From assembly GCF_000152945.2 (NCBI RefSeq), contig NC_020830.1, positions 434,001-498,000 of the forward strand: a DNA stretch of 64,000 nt, in the 5' to 3' direction. Made by a program: the position numbers and the translations under genes. Each line of letters starts with the position of its first letter. Within the stretch, counting starts at the first letter, position 1. Shown here piece by piece: positions 4,172 through 11,538 of this stretch. A model generated the notes under the pieces. It saw nothing but the letters and a program-made list of their open reading frames with translations, was not told the origin of the DNA and searched no databases. The stretch is from Polaribacter sp. MED152. Lineage in GTDB: Bacteria; Bacteroidota; Bacteroidia; Flavobacteriales; Flavobacteriaceae.

Positions 4172-4200
4172 TTATTTAACAAAAATTTTCAGCTTTAGTT

Positions 4201-4233
4201 TTTGGTATAATTAAAATAAAAGTAAGATATTTG
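4201..4233 (+). promoter_or_regulatory. Candidate his operon promoter
   Basis: TTTG at 4201-4204, 21 bases of spacer, then GATATTTG at 4226-4233: the Bacteroidota TTTG-N(19-23)-TAnnTTTG layout with one mismatch. Transcription would begin near 4239, just before the His leader ORF. Confidence 0.5.
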
Positions 4234-4250
4234 TAACAACAAAATAAGAC

Positions 4251-4307
4251 ATGACATTTATTCAAAATCATCATCATCATTTTTACAATTGCTCTCAAGC
4301 GATTTAA
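4251..4307 (+). CDS. hisL: Histidine operon leader peptide (HisL-type)
   Basis: An 18-codon ORF, MTFIQNHHHHFYNCSQAI, with four consecutive CAT histidine codons at 4269-4280. It starts about 12 bases after the predicted transcription start and ends 30 bases before a strong intrinsic terminator that precedes hisG. This is the arrangement of a ribosome-mediated attenuator: ribosomes stalling at the His codons when charged tRNA-His is scarce would favour an alternative RNA fold and let transcription reach hisG. His leader peptides are well known in enterobacteria; here the peptide sequence is unrelated but the logic is the same. It is shorter than usual annotation cut-offs, which is why it is easily missed. 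Confidence 0.82.
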   Translation: MTFIQNHHHHFYNCSQAI

Positions 4308-4350
4308 AAATGTATTGAATAAATTCAAGATATTTATAAACCTGTTTGAG
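4294..4350 (+). promoter_or_regulatory. Candidate antiterminator pairing of the his attenuator
   Basis: CTCAAGCG (4294-4301, the last codons of the leader ORF) can pair with TGTTTGAG (4343-4350) over 8 positions, including two G-U pairs. This would occupy most of the 5' arm of the terminator. The intervening loop contains a small hairpin, ttgaa/ttcaa (4315-4328). A ribosome stalled on the His codons would leave 4294-4301 free; one that reaches the stop codon would cover it. Read by eye, not by a folding program. Confidence 0.55.
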
Positions 4351-4374
4351 CAAATCAAACAGGTTTTTATTTTT
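4338..4374 (+). terminator. Attenuator terminator upstream of hisG
   Basis: Perfect 12-base arms aaacctgtttga (4338-4349) and tcaaacaggttt (4355-4366), a 5-base loop, and a T-rich tail to 4374. It lies between the His leader ORF and hisG, not after a gene, so it can only serve as a regulatory terminator of the his transcript. Confidence 0.88.
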
Positions 4375-4415
4375 AAACCGAATTTGCTCAAACCACTTTT
4401 AATTAAAATTTAAAA

Positions 4416-5273
4416 ATGAGTTATTTAAGAATTGCAGTACAAAAATCAGGAAGATTAAATGAAGATTCAATGAGAATCTTAAAAGACATTGGAATTTCTA
4501 TAGACAATGGTAAAGATCAGTTAAAAGCAGCTGCTAGAGATTTTCCTGTAGAAGTATTTTATTTAAGAAATGGTGATATTCCTCAATATTTAAGAGATGG
4601 AGTAGTAGATGCAGCCATTATTGGTGAGAATGTTTTAATTGAAAAAGGGAGCGATTTAGATTTTGTAGAACGTTTAGGTTTTTCTAAATGTAGAGTATCA
4701 ATTGCTGTTCCAAAAGATTCTAAAGCAAATTCTTTAAAAGATTTAGAAGGCAAAAGAATAGCAACTTCTTATCCAGAAACTGTAAAACAGTTTTTGAAAA
4801 AACAAAATATAGATGCTCAATTGCACATCATTAACGGTTCTGTAGAAATTGCACCAAATATAGGGCTTGCAGATGGTATTTGTGATATTGTTTCAAGTGG
4901 TAGTACATTATTTAAAAACGGACTAAAGGAAATTGAAGTACTATTAAAATCGGAAGCTGTTTTAGCAGTCTCTCCACAAATAGATGAAGAAAGAAAACAA
5001 ATTTTAGAGAAAATACAGTTTCGAATTCAGTCTGTTTTAAAAGCAAGAAACTCAAAGTATGTACTTTTAAATGCACCTAATAATAAATTAGATAAAATTT
5101 TAGATTTATTACCAGGTATGAGAAGTCCAACTGTTTTACCATTAGCAGAAGAAGGTTGGAGTTCAGTTCACACTGTAATTAGTAAGAATGATTTTTGGGA
5201 GATGATAGATGAGTTGAAAGCCAATGGTGCAGAAGGCATTTTGGTATGTCCAATAGAAAAAATGGTACTTTAA
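4416..5273 (+). CDS. hisG: ATP phosphoribosyltransferase HisG (long form)
   Basis: First enzyme of histidine synthesis; condenses ATP with PRPP to phosphoribosyl-ATP. At 285 residues it is the long, hexameric form: catalytic lobes to about residue 210, then a C-terminal ACT-like regulatory domain (LPGMRSPTVLPLAEEGWSSV onward) where histidine binds in this form, so no HisZ partner is needed. The N-terminus YLRIAVQKSGRLNEDS and the GLADGICDIVSSGSTLF PRPP-binding loop (about 150-167) are typical. First structural gene after the attenuator; hisD follows after 10 bases. Confidence 0.96.
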   Translation: MSYLRIAVQKSGRLNEDSMRILKDIGISIDNGKDQLKAAARDFPVEVFYLRNGDIPQYLRDGVVDAAIIGENVLIEKGSDLDFVERLGFSKCRVSIAVPKDSKANSLKDLEGKRIATSYPETVKQFLKKQNIDAQLHIINGSVEIAPNIGLADGICDIVSSGSTLFKNGLKEIEVLLKSEAVLAVSPQIDEERKQILEKIQFRIQSVLKARNSKYVLLNAPNNKLDKILDLLPGMRSPTVLPLAEEGWSSVHTVISKNDFWEMIDELKANGAEGILVCPIEKMVL

Positions 5274-5283
5274 TATTTTTACA

Positions 5284-6567
5284 ATGAAGGTTATTTTAAA
5301 TCCTAAAAAAGAAACTTGGTCTAAAATACTAGAAAGACCAACAAAAACTGTAGATGATATTGAAGCTTCAGTTTCTAGAATTTTTAAAGAAGTTCAAGAA
5401 ACAGGTGATGATGCTGTTAATAAATATACCAACCAGTTTGATCAAGTTCAGTTAGCCTCTAATTTGGTTTCTGAAGAAGAAATAAAAAATGCAGCAAACA
5501 ATGTTTCTGAAAGTTTAAAAACAGCTATTAATACTGCATATAATAATATTAGTAAGTTTCACGAGGCGCAGAAAACAAGTAAGGTTGCTGTAGAAACTAC
5601 GAATGGTGTAAAATGTTGGCAGGAAAAAAGACCTATCCAAAAAGTAGGTTTATACATTCCAGGAGGGACAGCTCCTCTTTTTTCTACAGTGCTAATGTTA
5701 GCAATTCCTGCTCAAATTGCAGGTTGCAAAGAAATTGTTTTATGCTCACCACCAAATTCAGAAGGTGAGATCAATCCAGCCATATTATATACCGCTAATT
5801 TATGTGGTGTAACTAAAATAATTAAAGTTGGAGGTATACAGGCCATAGCTGGTTTAACTTTTGGTACTGCAAATATTCCACAAGTTTATAAAATTTTTGG
5901 ACCAGGAAATCAATACGTAACAGTTGCAAAACAATTGGCTACAAAATTTGGTGTTGCCATTGATATGCCTGCAGGACCTAGTGAATTGTTAGTAGTTGCA
6001 GATGATGCAGCTAAAGCAAGTTATGTAGCTTCAGATTTATTAAGCCAAGCAGAACATGGAGTAGATTCTCAAGTCATCCTGGTGTCAACTTCTCAACAAT
6101 TGATTGATGATGTTGAAATTGAATTAAATACTCAAATTGAACAATTGTCTAGAAAAGAAATCGCTAAAAAGGCCATTGCAAATTCAAAATCTATTCTGGT
6201 TGATAATGATGAAATAGCATTAGATTTAATAAACGATTATGGTCCAGAACACTTTATAGTTTGTACTAAAGACAATGATTATTATATAGATAACATAGCA
6301 AATGCTGGTTCTGTTTTTATTGGTAATTATACTCCAGAAAGTGCAGGAGATTATGCTTCAGGAACAAACCATACATTACCAACAAACGGATTTTCTAAAG
6401 CCTATTCAGGTGTTAACCTAGATAGCTTTATGAAAAGTATTACGTTTCAAGAAATATCTAAAGAAGGAATTTTAGATATTGGTAGTGCCATAGAAATTAT
6501 GGCTGCAGCAGAAGGTTTAGATGCGCACAAAAATGCGGTGACACTTCGTTTAAAAGATTTGCAATAA
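5284..6567 (+). CDS. hisD: Histidinol dehydrogenase HisD
   Basis: Catalyses the last two steps, L-histidinol to L-histidine, with NAD+. The 427-residue length is normal. The IPGGTAPLFSTVLMLAIPAQ region near 124-143, the GPGNQYVTVAKQ loop and the IDMPAGPSELLVVADDA signature are intact. QAEHGVDSQV supplies the zinc-binding Gln/His, and GPEHF supplies the catalytic Glu-His pair. Starts 10 bases after hisG and ends one base before hisC, so the genes are translated from one message. Confidence 0.96.
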   Translation: MKVILNPKKETWSKILERPTKTVDDIEASVSRIFKEVQETGDDAVNKYTNQFDQVQLASNLVSEEEIKNAANNVSESLKTAINTAYNNISKFHEAQKTSKVAVETTNGVKCWQEKRPIQKVGLYIPGGTAPLFSTVLMLAIPAQIAGCKEIVLCSPPNSEGEINPAILYTANLCGVTKIIKVGGIQAIAGLTFGTANIPQVYKIFGPGNQYVTVAKQLATKFGVAIDMPAGPSELLVVADDAAKASYVASDLLSQAEHGVDSQVILVSTSQQLIDDVEIELNTQIEQLSRKEIAKKAIANSKSILVDNDEIALDLINDYGPEHFIVCTKDNDYYIDNIANAGSVFIGNYTPESAGDYASGTNHTLPTNGFSKAYSGVNLDSFMKSITFQEISKEGILDIGSAIEIMAAAEGLDAHKNAVTLRLKDLQ

Positions 6568-6568
6568 T

Positions 6569-7615
6569 ATGAATGTTTTAGATTTAGTTAGAGATAATAT
6601 TAAAAATATTAAACCTTATTCATCAGCTAGAGATGAATATAAAGATGCTACTTCAGAAAGTATGATTTTCTTAGATGCTAATGAAAATCCTTTCGAAAAT
6701 GGTGTAAATCGTTATCCTGATCCTCAACAAAATGATGTAAAAGAAATTTTGTCAACTATTAAAAATGTTGGTAAAGAAAATATTCTATTAGGTAATGGAA
6801 GTGATGAAGTTTTAGATCTAATTTTCAGAGCCTTTTGTGAACCAAATCAGGATAATATCATCACATTACCACCAACTTACGGTATGTACAGTGTTTTGGC
6901 AAATATCAATGCAATTACAAATACAGAAGTGCTATTGTCATCAGATTTTCAGCCAAAGGTTCAACAGATTTTAGAATTGGCTGATGAACATAGTAAAATT
7001 TTGTTTTTATGTTCACCAAACAATCCGTCAGGAAATAGCTTTTCAACAGAAAATGTTAAAGAACTACTGAACAAATTTAAAGGTTTAGTGGTTGTAGATG
7101 AAGCATATATTGATTTTTCAGATCAACAAAGTTGGTTAAATCGTTTAGAAGAATTTCCAAACTTAATAATTACCCAGACACTTTCTAAAGCTTATGGTTT
7201 AGCAGGTATTCGATTAGGAGTTTGTTATGCATCCAAAGAGATTATTGCTGTTTTAAATTCAATAAAACCACCTTATAACGTTAATGAACTTACGCAACAA
7301 AGAGCTTACGAGCGTTTAAATAATAAGGATCAAGTAGCTGCAGAAATTAAAGCAATTAAAATTGAAAGAGAAAAACTAATACAGTCTTTAGAGCTTATAA
7401 ATTATGTAGATAAAATTTATCCTTCAGATTGTAATTTTGTTTTAGTAAAGGTAGATGATGCCACAAAGAGATACAATCAGTTAATAAATTTGGGCATTGT
7501 AGTTAGAAATAGAACTACCCAACCTTTATGCGAAAATTGTTTAAGATTTACAGTTGGAACTGAGGAAGAAAACATAAGATTATTGGAAGCTTTAAAAGAA
7601 TTACAAAATGGCTAA
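6569..7615 (+). CDS. hisC: Histidinol-phosphate aminotransferase HisC
   Basis: PLP-dependent class II aminotransferase of 348 residues converting imidazole-acetol phosphate to histidinol phosphate. [18 protein letters not shown] (73-90) is the typical N-terminal signature, NNPSGN (151-156) contacts the cofactor, and [14 protein letters not shown] carries the Schiff-base lysine K207. The coding end overlaps the hisB start by 8 bases, which suggests translational coupling. Confidence 0.95.
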
Positions 7616-8747
7616 AAAAGTACTTTTTATAGATAGAGATGGAACTTTAGTATTAGAACCACCTGTAGATTATCAATTAGATAGTTTAGAAAAATTAGAA
7701 TATTACCCAAAGGTATTTCAATATATGGCTAAATTAGCCAACGAGCTAGATTATGAATTGGTAATGGTTACCAATCAAGATGGTTTAGGTACAGATTCGT
7801 TTCCTGAAGATACATTTTGGCCTGCACAGAATAAAATTATCTCAGCATTTGAGAAAGAAGGAGTTGTGTTTTCTGAAGTTTGTATTGATAAAACTTTTCC
7901 TCATGAAAATGCAGAAACTCGCAAACCTAGAACAGGTTTGTTAACCAAATATTTTTCTGAAGAATATGATTTAGAGAATTCTTTTGTTTTAGGTGATAGA
8001 ATTACAGATATGGAACTAGCAAAGAATTTAGGAGCAAAAGGTATTTATTTATCTGAGAACCCAGATTTAGGTGCAGATGAAATTGAAAGTTCGAAAAAAG
8101 AAATTATAGACGCAATTGCTTTAACAAGCACAGATTGGGCAAAAATCTATGAATTTTTAAAATTGCAAGATCGTGTTGCAGAAATCACTAGAAATACCAA
8201 TGAAACTAAAATTTATATCAAACTAAATTTAGACGGTTCAGGTAAAAATGATATTGATACTGGTTTAAAATTCTTCGATCACATGTTAGATCAAATTGGT
8301 AGGCATGGAAATATGGATTTAACCATAAAGGTCGATGGCGATTTAGAAGTGGATGAGCATCATACAATAGAAGATACCATGATTGCTTTTGGAGAGTTGT
8401 TCCACAAAGCTCTAGGCAATAAATTAGGTATTGAAAGATATGGTTTTTGTTTACCTATGGATGATTGTTTAGCACAAGTTGCTGTAGATTTTGGAGGTAG
8501 AAATTGGTTAGAATGGGATGCTGAATTTAAACGAGAAATGATTGGTGATATGCCAACAGAAATGTTTTATCACTTGTTTAAATCATTCACAGATGGTGCT
8601 AAGTGCAATTTAAATATTAAAGCAGAAGGTGTAAATGAACACCACAAAATAGAAGGTATTTTTAAAGCTTTTGCAAAAGCGATGAAAATGGCAGTGAAAA
8701 GAGATGCTAATAAAATGTTTTTACCCTCAACAAAAGGAATGTTATAA
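7608..8747 (+). CDS. hisB: Bifunctional histidinol-phosphatase / imidazoleglycerol-phosphate dehydratase HisB
   Basis: A two-domain fusion of 379 residues. Residues 1 to about 165 form a HAD phosphatase with the DxD nucleophile motif FIDRDGTL (D9, D11) and a zinc loop region. Residues about 185-379 form the dehydratase, with [13 protein letters not shown] and [16 protein letters not shown] manganese-binding motifs and a matching [20 protein letters not shown] repeat near the C-terminus. It thus covers two pathway steps, as in E. coli and most Bacteroidota. Starts inside the 3' end of hisC. A 32-base gap containing an AGC/GCAAA-type repeat (see findings) separates it from hisH. Confidence 0.96.
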
Positions 8748-8779
8748 AAAGCTGTTTGCCAATAGCAAAAAGATATTAA

Positions 8780-9361
8780 ATGAAATTAGTAATTATTGAT
8801 TATGGTGCAGGAAACATTAAAAGCATTCAATTTGCTTTTAAAAGGTTAGGTGTAGAAGCTGTTTTATCAAATAATATTGATGAAATTAAAGCTGCGGATA
8901 AAGTAATTTTTCCTGGTGTTGGTGAAGCAAGTTCAGCAATGCAAATGTTAAAGGAAAGTGGTTTAGATAAAGTAATACCTACTTTAACACAACCTGTTTT
9001 GGGTATTTGTTTGGGTATGCAACTAATGTGCAATTCATCTGAAGAAGGCAATACCAAAGGTTTAGCAATTTTTGATGTAGCTATTAAGAAGTTTTCTGAA
9101 AATGTGAAAGTACCTCAAATGGGTTGGAATGTTATTTACAATTTAAAATCAGACTTATTTAAAGGCATAAAAGAAAAAGAATTCATGTATTTGGTACACA
9201 GTTTTTATGCAGAAAATTGTAAGGAAGCTATAGCTACAACAGATTATGAAATAGAATATGCATCTGCACTACAAAAAGATAATTTTTACGGAGTACAATT
9301 TCATCCAGAGAAATCATCTAAAGCAGGTGAACAAATATTAAAGAACTTCTTAGAATTATAA
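8780..9361 (+). CDS. hisH: Imidazole glycerol phosphate synthase glutaminase subunit HisH
   Basis: Class I glutamine amidotransferase of 193 residues that feeds ammonia to HisF. The nucleophile is C77 in [11 protein letters not shown]; the His/Glu of the triad lie in QFHPEKS near the C-terminus; the oxyanion strand is PGVGEAS (45-51). Works as a heterodimer with the hisF product two genes downstream. hisA starts one base after its stop codon. Confidence 0.95.
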
Positions 9362-9362
9362 A

Positions 9363-10100
9363 ATGAGAATAATTCCAGCAATAGATATTATAGATGGTAA
9401 ATGTGTTCGTTTAACAAAGGGCGATTACAATACCAAAAAAATATATAATAAGAATCCAATTGAGGTTGCCAAAGAATTTGAAGATTCTGGTATAAAGTAT
9501 TTACATGTAGTAGATTTAGATGGCGCAAAAGCAAGTGAAATCATCAATTATAAGGTACTAGAACAAATTGCAACAAAAACCAATTTAAAAATAGATTTTG
9601 GTGGTGGTTTAAAGTCTGATAAAGATCTAGAAATTGCTTTTAACTCTGGTGCAAACCAAATTACAGGTGGTAGCATTGCTGTTAAAAATCCGACTATTTT
9701 TGAAAATTGGATTTCTAAATATGGTGCAGAGAAAATAATATTAGGTGCAGATTTTTATCCTGATACTTCAGGAGGAAAAATAGCAACCAATGGTTGGCAA
9801 GAAGAAAGTAGTTTGGCTTTAATTCCTTTTGTAGCTGATTATCAGAAAAAAGGAATTCAATATGTTATTTGCACAGATATTTCTAAAGATGGTATGTTGC
9901 AAGGCCCGAGTTTCGAAGTTTATTCAGAGTTGTTGGCTTCTGTAAATCCTTTAAAACTAATTGCTTCTGGTGGTATTTCTACTTTTGAAGAAATTCCAAA
10001 ATTAGCCGAGAATGGTTGTGAAGGTGTTATTATAGGCAAAGCCATTTATGAGAATAAAATCAGTTTAAAACAATTAGAACAATTTATCATTAATAAATAG
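9363..10100 (+). CDS. hisA: ProFAR isomerase HisA
   Basis: (Beta-alpha)8-barrel isomerase of 245 residues that opens the ribose ring of ProFAR to give PRFAR. The catalytic Asp of the first strand is D8 in [14 protein letters not shown], and the second is in [14 protein letters not shown] (about 172-185). Phosphate-binding glycines are in DFGGGLKS and IASGGIST. Paralogous with HisF, which lies next. Confidence 0.95.
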
Positions 10101-10164
10101 CCTTAAGCTATTAGCGTTTAGCACTTTGCTAAAAGTTAAAAGCCAAATGGCAAAAGCTATCATA

Positions 10165-10920
10165 ATGTTAACAAAAAGAATTATTCCTTGTTTAGATATT
10201 AAAAACGGACGAACTGTAAAAGGTGTGAATTTCGTGAATTTAATTGATGCAGGAGACCCAGTAGTATTAGCAAAACAATATGCAGATTTAGGTGCAGACG
10301 AACTTGTTTTTCTAGATATAGCTGCCACATTAGAGAATAGAGGCACAACTCTAGATATGGTTTTAAAAGTAGCAGAACAAGTTAATATTCCGTTTACTGT
10401 TGGTGGTGGAATTTCTTCTGTAGATCATGTAAATGCGCTTTTAAAATGTGGCGCAGACAAGGTTTCTATAAATTCATCTGCAGTAAAAAGACCAGATTTA
10501 ATCAATGAATTATCAGAAAAATTTGGTAGTCAATGTGTGGTTGTTGCCATAGATGCAAAGCAAGTTGATGGTGAATGGCTCGTTCATTTGGCTGGAGGTA
10601 CAATTCCTACAGATATCAATCTTTTTGAATGGGCAAAGGAAGTTGAAAAACGTGGAGCAGGAGAAATTTTGTTTACATCCATGAACAATGATGGCACTAA
10701 AGCAGGTTTTGCAAACGAAGCTTTAGCAAAATTATCAACAGAATTAAATATACCAATCATAGCCTCTGGAGGTGCAGGTTCTGTACAGCATTTTATTGAT
10801 ACTTTTGTAGACGGTAAATCTGATGCTGCATTAGCTGCAAGTGTATTTCACTTTGGTGAAATTCCTATTCCAGATTTAAAACAAGAATTAAAAGAAAATA
10901 ATATTCCAATTCGATTATAA
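10165..10920 (+). CDS. hisF: Imidazole glycerol phosphate synthase cyclase subunit HisF
   Basis: Barrel subunit that uses ammonia from HisH to turn PRFAR into imidazole glycerol phosphate and AICAR. The catalytic aspartates are in [11 protein letters not shown] (D10) and [11 protein letters not shown] near residue 170. In-frame ATGs at 10126 and 10147 would add 13 or 6 residues, but those fall in a repeat-like spacer and are not family-like; starting at 10165 gives 251 residues beginning [12 protein letters not shown], the normal HisF N-terminus. Confidence 0.95.
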
Positions 10921-10938
10921 ATACCAATTTTAAAACTG

Positions 10939-11538
10939 ATGACAATAGATTTTAATAAAAATAATGATGGGTTAGTGCCAGCAATCATACAAGATGCTAC
11001 AACAAAAAATGTTTTGATGTTGGGGTATATGAATCAGGAAGCTTACAATAAAACCTTAAAAACCAATAAGGTTACTTTTTTTTCCAGATCTAAAAATAGA
11101 TTATGGACTAAGGGCGAGGAAAGTGGAAATGTTTTGCATTTGGTAGATATTAAGAACGATTGTGATAATGATTCATTACTTATTCAGGTAAATCCTAAAG
11201 GACCAACTTGTCATAAAGGTTCAGATACCTGTTGGAATGAGGATAACACATCTAATTTCGGTTTTTTATCAACCTTAGAAAACGTAATTAGTGAGAGAGT
11301 TGCCAACAAAGAAACTAAGAAATCTTATGTGGCTAGCTTATTTGATAAAGGAATAAATAAAATTGCTCAAAAAGTAGGAGAGGAGGCTGTAGAAACAGTA
11401 ATTGAAGCTATGGATAACAATGATGAGTTGTTCTTATACGAATCTGCAGATTTACTTTTTCATTATTTAATGTTACTGCAAGCTAAAGGCTTTACTTTAA
11501 AAGATATTGAAGCCGAATTAATAAAAAGACAGAAATAA
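10939..11538 (+). CDS. hisI: Phosphoribosyl-AMP cyclohydrolase / phosphoribosyl-ATP pyrophosphatase HisIE
   Basis: Fused enzyme of 199 residues for steps two and three of the pathway. The HisI domain (1 to about 105) has the zinc and magnesium motifs SRSKNRLWTKGEESG, DCDNDSLLIQ and GPTCHKGSDTCW. The HisE domain (about 110-199) is the helical MazG-like pyrophosphatase with KVGEEAVETVIEA and ESADLLFHYLMLL. It is the last gene of the operon and is followed by a strong terminator, so the operon encodes every step from PRPP to histidine. Confidence 0.95.
   Translation: MTIDFNKNNDGLVPAIIQDATTKNVLMLGYMNQEAYNKTLKTNKVTFFSRSKNRLWTKGEESGNVLHLVDIKNDCDNDSLLIQVNPKGPTCHKGSDTCWNEDNTSNFGFLSTLENVISERVANKETKKSYVASLFDKGINKIAQKVGEEAVETVIEAMDNNDELFLYESADLLFHYLMLLQAKGFTLKDIEAELIKRQK

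Follow-up and report, generated by a model that had tools for sequence, protein, structure and literature searches.

Leader-peptide attenuation of his operons has long been known, and the short His-rich open reading frame (ORF) ahead of hisG in Polaribacter sp. MED152 raises the question of whether this flavobacterial operon is controlled in the same manner and, if so, by which RNA pairings. The locus lies in a 64,000-nt stretch of DNA (hereafter the window; NC_020830.1, positions 434,001 to 498,000 of the forward strand), to which all coordinates refer (Table 1), in a genome of 2.96 Mb on a single contig. Among the matches listed, from which the genome's own record may have been excluded, the closest hisG is that of a Polaribacter MAG, with 97% identity. 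A first-pass annotation, made from the DNA letters alone, had read the region as a His-codon attenuator of hisG with only two alternative pairings.

Table 1. Features of the his leader and operon in the window
Feature	Position	Strand	Basis
Promoter-like pair: TTTG (4201-4204), N21, GATATTTG (4226-4233)	4201..4233	+	Read directly
Leader peptide ORF, 18 codons, MTFIQNHHHHFYNCSQAI*, ATG at 4251, stop at 4305-4307	4251..4307	+	Read directly; conserved
Four tandem His codons (CAT x4)	4269..4280	+	Read directly
Hairpin 1:2, last His codon to just beyond leader stop	4278..4312	+	Covariation; -10.0 kcal/mol; 13 pairs in ribosome-free window fold
Strand 2, CTCAAGCG, 5' side of antiterminator, final leader codons	4294..4301	+	7-bp core paired in 65-68/68
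Middle hairpin TTGAATAAATTCAA, within antiterminator	4315..4328	+	94.5% of cells paired; 7 double-change cells, at one pair
Strand 3, 5' arm of terminator, partner common to strands 2, 4 and 5	4338..4349	+	Terminator search; pairing counts
Loop of terminator, GCAAA; takes part in pairing to strand 5	4350..4354	+	Duplex and covariation
Strand 4: 3' arm of terminator (4355-4366) and T-rich tail (4367-4374)	4355..4374	+	99.4% of cells paired
Strand 5, ATTTGCTCAAAC, partner of 4344-4355 (end of terminator 5' arm, loop, first base of 3' arm)	4382..4393	+	Duplex; covariation
hisG, first gene of the controlled operon	4416..5273	+	TIGR00070 match, E 6e-55
hisD, hisC, hisB, hisH, hisA, hisF, hisIE, after hisG	5284..11538	+	NCBIfam equivalog models

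A His-rich leader ORF is conserved upstream of hisG

The 18-codon ORF with four tandem CAT codons that had been annotated ahead of hisG can be read directly in the window. We searched the regions upstream of hisG for ORFs of 6-50 amino acids with at least three His within six residues. Such a His-rich leader was found in 80/80 related loci, the best 80 of 545 and mostly from Flavobacteriaceae. For this close set with the window added, the count is 81/81 upstream regions compared with 5/243 dinucleotide shuffles, and QA are the two residues preceding the last leader residue in 76 of the 81 leaders.

In a wider sample of Bacteroidia, hisG was found in 78/148 genomes sampled from the order and in 108/247 sampled from the class, and 123 upstream regions were taken from these matches (genome G005 contributing two). 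A His-rich ORF is present in 113 of the 123, compared with 9/369 shuffles, and the 10 regions without one include three from 600-kb genomes (L159, L170, and L171). It is combined with a terminator in 50/60 regions of the order sample, family included, and in 45/62 outside the order, where the terminator sequences are unlike those within Flavobacteriales. Since an ORF with three Leu within six residues is also present in 81/123 of these same regions, the run criterion alone is unselective for AT-rich codons, although with His it is passed by few of the shuffles.

Upstream of the leader, the promoter-like TTTG-N21-GATATTTG of the first-pass annotation is indeed present, and we take it to resemble the Bacteroidota promoter consensus. 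Matches to sigma-70-type consensus sequences around the leader are at chance level (6 vs. 6.4 expected). A -7-like box is found 7-20 nt upstream of the leader ATG in 80/81 loci by raw count. The distance from box to ATG is 17 nt in the window. In 12 of the 80 box-bearing loci it is 7-8 nt, so the 5' untranslated region from which the leader is translated may be very short.

The leader RNA holds a classical three-state set and a fourth pairing

Between the leader ORF and hisG, a terminator search found a hairpin at 4338-4366 with 12 pairs, a 5-nt loop and a T-rich tail, in agreement with the 12-base-pair terminator annotated there. It is the one terminator in the surrounding 1-kb region, where shuffles gave 0.2 (SD 0.5), and the leader RNA folds with a z score of -6.1 relative to shuffles. 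Conservation of the pairings was scored in an alignment of the window and 67 of the 80 loci (68 sequences, hereafter A1). A1 omits the 10 loci with a gap of at least 70 nt between terminator and hisG (L004, L009, L012, L018, L032, L047, L049, L061, L067, and L078) as well as L026, L034, and L080. In A1, 99.4% of the cells of the terminator (3:4) are paired, with 11 double-change cells compared with 0.6 in shuffles, a control that, here and in the other pairing counts, ignores kinship among the sequences.

Strand 2, at the end of the leader ORF, had been annotated as complementary to the 5' arm of the terminator, and this complementarity stands: CTCAAGCG (4294-4301) and TGTTTGAG (4343-4350) form 8 bp, including two G-U. 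Each of the seven positions of the core, UCAAGCG:CGUUUGA, is paired in 65-68 of the 68 sequences, and the eighth pair is kept in 42/68. Taken together with the middle hairpin, 2:3 has 94.6% of its cells paired vs. 24-56% when slid, a comparison biased toward the actual structures, here and below, since these were derived from the same sequences on which they were scored. Because changes in the 2:3 core are few and all to G-U, with no double changes, its support comes from invariance more than from covariation, and the fact that strand 2 doubles as coding sequence is a point against reading that invariance as RNA pairing. For the arrangement as a whole, both the His codons and the 4294/4343 complementarity are thus conserved upstream of hisG in relatives, which was one of the checks suggested with the first-pass annotation.

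A further hairpin precedes the antiterminator. In A1, 90.2% of the 1:2 cells are paired vs. 31-54% when slid, and there are 69 double-change cells compared with 24.1 (SD 5.4) in shuffles, within a structure that overlaps the control codons. Because this pairing, from the last His codon to the region past the stop, covaries, the leader has the classical 1:2, 2:3, and 3:4 three-state layout. A fourth pairing, 3:5, lies past the terminator and is described below. The claim of only two alternative pairings is therefore not supported, and the two-state description is incomplete.

The leader codons ahead of the His run (TTTATTCAA, 4256-4264) can also pair with TTGAATAAA (4315-4323), which would extend 1:2 and compete with the middle hairpin. 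For this pairing, z is -3 or lower in 45/68 sequences, with a mean of -6.25 for own and -4.48 for cross combinations.

Folding of the leader is consistent with kinetic antitermination

We folded the leader RNA with different segments masked, using ribosome footprints from general knowledge. When the window RNA was ended at 4354, 1:2 formed with 13 pairs and 2:3 was absent in the ribosome-free state. Masking the leader at 4251-4290, as for a stalled ribosome, gave 2:3 over 8 pairs, and masking 4287-4317, as for a ribosome at the stop codon, left neither 1:2 nor 2:3. As the first-pass annotation had anticipated, blocking 4294-4301 abolished 2:3 and the terminator formed. Once the RNA was extended to 4366, the terminator prevailed in every state, stalled included.

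The same states were found among the 68 sequences. Under the stalled mask, 2:3 forms in 67 of them as long as strand 4 is missing; with strand 4 present, 3:4 forms at equilibrium in 68/68. It likewise forms in 68/68 with the ribosome at the stop. The ribosome-free state is less uniform: before strand 4 is made, 1:2 is predicted in 28 sequences and 2:3 in 36, and with strand 4 present 1:2 is predicted in 57 and 3:4 in 68. When the ribosome-free fold is begun at the last His codon, 2:3 appears in 64/68, compared with the 36/68 obtained when the 5' part of the leader is included. In these models, the window gives a clear no-translation state, but across the 68-sequence set this state is only split. 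The antiterminator overlaps the end of the leader ORF, is exclusive with the terminator, and forms before strand 4 but not at full-length equilibrium. Since 3:4 wins at equilibrium even with the leader masked, antitermination must be kinetic, with 2:3 forming first and delaying 3:4. We regard an equilibrium win of the terminator and split ribosome-free folds as ordinary for attenuators.

On the strength of the conserved His-rich ORF and the conserved pairings, attenuation of hisG through its His codons, as first annotated, is well supported at the sequence level. Very probably, the leader controls the his operon by ribosome-mediated transcription attenuation and has four pairings in competition; for this mechanism we infer the ribosome positions, the histidine response and the role of 3:5. 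When histidine is scarce, a ribosome would stall on 4269-4280 and mask strand 1, leaving strand 2 (4294-4301) to pair with strand 3 (4343-4350), so that the terminator would be delayed and RNA polymerase would enter hisG. When histidine is plentiful, the ribosome would reach the stop at 4305-4307 and cover strand 2, and 3:4 would terminate transcription. Were the leader not translated, 1:2 (4278-4312) would sequester strand 2, again with termination by 3:4. In RNA that has been read through, strand 5 (4382-4393) would compete for the 5' arm and loop of the terminator. The hairpin could also be a plain terminator of the upstream ORF that happens to lie beside a chance His-rich ORF, and it does start 167 nt past the point where that ORF ends. 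Against this, the pairings are conserved and covarying and the His-rich ORF is rare in shuffled regions, which leaves this explanation with a negligible likelihood.

The leader differs from known his attenuators

The enterobacterial his attenuator (hisL; Rfam His leader family) combines a His-codon leader peptide, a three-state RNA and an intrinsic terminator ahead of the his operon, and the leader described here has the same elements. It differs in having an additional strand past the terminator and in lacking an Rfam match: the scan gave none at gathering level in the window, and at E <= 1 the seven matches in 4180-4500 were all under gathering scores, with none a His leader. The first-pass annotation had considered the RNA unrelated to hisL, and we likewise detect no relation to any Rfam family, the His leader included. 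Another difference from the enterobacterial system is the host, which belongs to a group not known to rely on Shine-Dalgarno pairing. Attenuation would imply that transcription and translation are coupled at this leader in such a group. Candidate attenuators in Bacteroidetes/Chlorobi were reportedly described by Vitreschak et al. in FEMS Microbiol Lett in 2004, and we claim no priority for a his leader in Bacteroidetes. In the open-access literature searched, we found no recognisable description of a his leader from Bacteroidota or flavobacteria, and as far as these searches reach only the arrangement with strand 5 is new.

In the accessible parts of the papers concerned, a close parallel comes from another phylum. 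For Firmicutes his operons, comparative genomics has described a His leader peptide with a terminator and an antiterminator upstream (PMC9413887), as seen here. Attenuators in which a structure sequestering the ribosome-binding site stands in for the terminator are also known (PMC9413887), but there the structure replaces the terminator, and the two are not described within one leader. A 2010 survey stated that, ermC-type systems aside, leader-peptide systems had then been shown only in Proteobacteria and Actinobacteria (PMC2965389). Relative to that statement, the present leader adds a leader-peptide system that has covariation behind it in Flavobacteriaceae and that, judged from ORF content, extends to most of the Bacteroidia regions sampled upstream of hisG. 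Leader genes in Bacteroidetes are treated by distance only in the accessible text of PMC4833913, and ORFs in 5' untranslated regions of Bacteroides thetaiotaomicron are called "reminiscent of leader peptides" in that of PMC7366714, where histidine and hisG go unmentioned.

Strand 5 has retained complementarity to strand 3, on which termination hinges

The fourth pairing joins strand 5 to the end of the 5' arm of the terminator, its loop and the first base of its 3' arm. In the window, this duplex has an energy of -15.9 kcal/mol (z -6.8), and in the full 4239-4415 RNA 3:5 is the pairing of lowest energy. In A1, where strand 5 was anchored by the sequence alignment alone, 87.3% of 13 x 68 cells are paired vs. 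27-51% when slid by 1-4; because the ten omitted long-gap loci fail the 3:5 rule given below, these percentages describe loci without long inserts. In the loop part, 380/476 cells are paired; 2000 permutations gave 283 on average and 315 at most. Over the six invariant positions of strand 3, 46 of the 62 non-Watson-Crick cells are G-U (48 distinct strand pairs), a pattern that favors RNA pairing over a DNA-binding site.

Strand 5 also fits its own partner better than those of other loci. Own duplexes have a mean of -13.7 kcal/mol, compared with -9.3 when combined with the downstream regions of loci with another loop, and the own duplex is within the best tenth for 48/72 loci. By parsimony on a quick hisG tree, there have been at least 23 changes in the five bases after GTTTGA. 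In tree-aware swaps between 15 path-disjoint pairs of relatives differing in strand 3 or the loop, the own combination was better in 9, worse in 0 and tied in 6 (p 0.004). Independent-pair tests on single positions of strand 5 were not significant and had too little power. As a whole, these findings show that complementarity to the strand deciding termination is maintained in strand 5.

We determined how widespread strand 5 is with a fixed rule (z <= -3 and E <= -9). In the close set, the rule holds for 60/81 loci and fails for 21; the 60 comprise 60/71 loci with a gap of <70 nt and 0/10 with a longer one, and include L080, where the pairing lies in a G+C-rich stretch and may be due to chance. 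In the order sample, the rule holds for 37/60 regions (48 of the 60 being testable), and the mean of the own duplex is -14.3 vs. -8.8 for others, the own duplex being within the best twentieth for 24/48. Outside the order, it holds for 5/62 regions (30 testable), one of which, G148, probably by chance. The position of strand 5 is rather constant: counting one unpaired flanking base, its end lies 14-16 nt upstream of the hisG ATG for the central 50% of the 60 close loci, and in 28 of the 37 order-level cases the distance is 12-19 nt; in the window 22 nt separate the two. G003 has an unrelated terminator, yet a strand 5 ending 13 nt upstream of the hisG start, and G014 likewise has one, ending 12 nt upstream, but with a z of -2.5 it falls short of the rule.

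The trp leaders of the same family offer a comparison. The Bacteroid-trp motif (RF01692) is, by its name and table entry in PMC2864571, a Bacteroidetes RNA linked to trp and resembles the present leader in being an RNA of this phylum, the difference being trp rather than his. Leaders are also found upstream of trpE in Flavobacteriaceae: among 30 loci from 41 genomes of the family, 29 have a leader ORF that encodes two or more Trp (WWW in 28), and the best terminator is at most 62 nt from trpE in 25. By the fixed rule, strand 5 was found in 0/17 testable trpE upstream regions, in four of which the chosen terminator sat upstream of the leader; of the untestable regions, 12 had no more than 25 nt past the terminator and one had no terminator found. 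Since none of the 17 regions had a strand 5 by this rule, it does not seem to be a by-product of the attenuators of this group. The window genome itself has a leader ORF with three tandem Trp codons and a terminator just upstream of trpE (G000:C1:2690200-2692400, L243).

Strand 5 may add a second layer of control at hisG

That strand 5 covaries predicts a further level of control over hisG. As its transcription follows the termination decision, we infer that strand 5 is unable to act on termination itself; it can instead work within read-through RNA or serve as the site to which the terminated RNA binds. We compared the energies of 3:4 and 3:5 in 69 of 71 loci, the two without the pairing being skipped, and 3:5 is the lower in 30/69, or in 14/69 with 40 nt of hisG added. 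Relative to the 3:4 state, the 3:5 state closes positions -30 to -13 (unpaired 0.28 vs. 0.62) and opens -12 to -1 (0.99 vs. 0.71). In these models the accessibility pattern is ambiguous, being no plain sign of repression.

We rank a translational brake in cis first, refolding for stability second and action in trans third. In the cis-brake model, which we regard as a good possibility somewhat short of an even chance, 3:5 would form in leaky read-through RNA without a stalled ribosome and lower initiation at hisG, and 2:3 would release it, so that one leader would then control both transcription and translation. The near-fixed distance of strand 5 from the ATG, the rivalry of strands 2 and 5 for strand 3, and the pairing-up of -30 to -13 argue for such a brake; the open -12 to -1 segment, the closeness of the 3:4 and 3:5 energies, and the relatives in which the strand-5 rule fails argue against it. 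A dual transcription/translation leader requires a conserved alternative pairing near the start of the first gene, and this is present. The B. subtilis trp leader controls termination and, in read-through RNA, translation, as proposed here, but its sensor is the TRAP protein, whereas we propose a stalled ribosome. The greater openness of -12 to -1 in 3:5 could instead point to a structural element, by which 3:5 would refold the terminator in read-through mRNA and so protect its 5' region or keep the hisG initiation site open. This is rather unlikely, as such insulation gives no reason for the existence of strand 5 and trp leaders manage without it.

Less probable still is action of the terminated leader on existing his mRNAs, in which its terminator loop and arm would bind strand 5 and silence hisG translation. 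The covariation does take in loop bases that are free in 3:4, as a seed would, and the accessible text of PMC7143759 provides a precedent, rnTrpL of Sinorhizobium meliloti, an attenuation-made RNA that pairs with a biosynthetic mRNA, trpDC. That system, however, is a trp leader of an alphaproteobacterium, for the his leader a trans role is only a possibility, the results do not distinguish cis from trans, and the pairing is absent where long inserts part terminator and hisG, as for a cis element. A sequestration of the hisG start codon by strand 5 (5:6), relieved by 3:5, is very improbable: strand 5 can pair strongly with the start in some loci (-11.0 kcal/mol in both L063 and L074, for example), but in 66 loci there is no coevolution (own -4.77 vs. 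cross -4.52; mean rank 0.54), and we rejected this candidate. Whether by a brake in cis or via the terminated RNA, we consider it an evenly balanced proposition that one terminator strand with three partners (strands 2, 4, and 5) makes this a Flavobacteriales leader controlling both transcription and hisG translation.

In the window's own genome, a search with an RNA model of the leader returned the his leader as the only clear match (E 1.7e-19), the 21 others being at 0.009 or weaker. L009, L012, L018, L032, L047, L061, and L067 have long inserts between terminator and hisG and fail the strand-5 rule; in some long-gap loci the inserts look by eye like short palindromic repeats. In other Bacteroidia (L119-L141 and L173-L212), His leaders occur with other terminators, many of the GGCTTACC/GGTAAGCC type, and the terminator ends <25 nt from hisG in 15/45, thus abutting the start region. 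Finally, ACTCAT directly follows strand 5 in L019, L052, L054, L064, L065, L068, L070, and L075 and is complementary to a hisG start of ATGAGT, a possible pairing that appears in the folds of L019 and L052.
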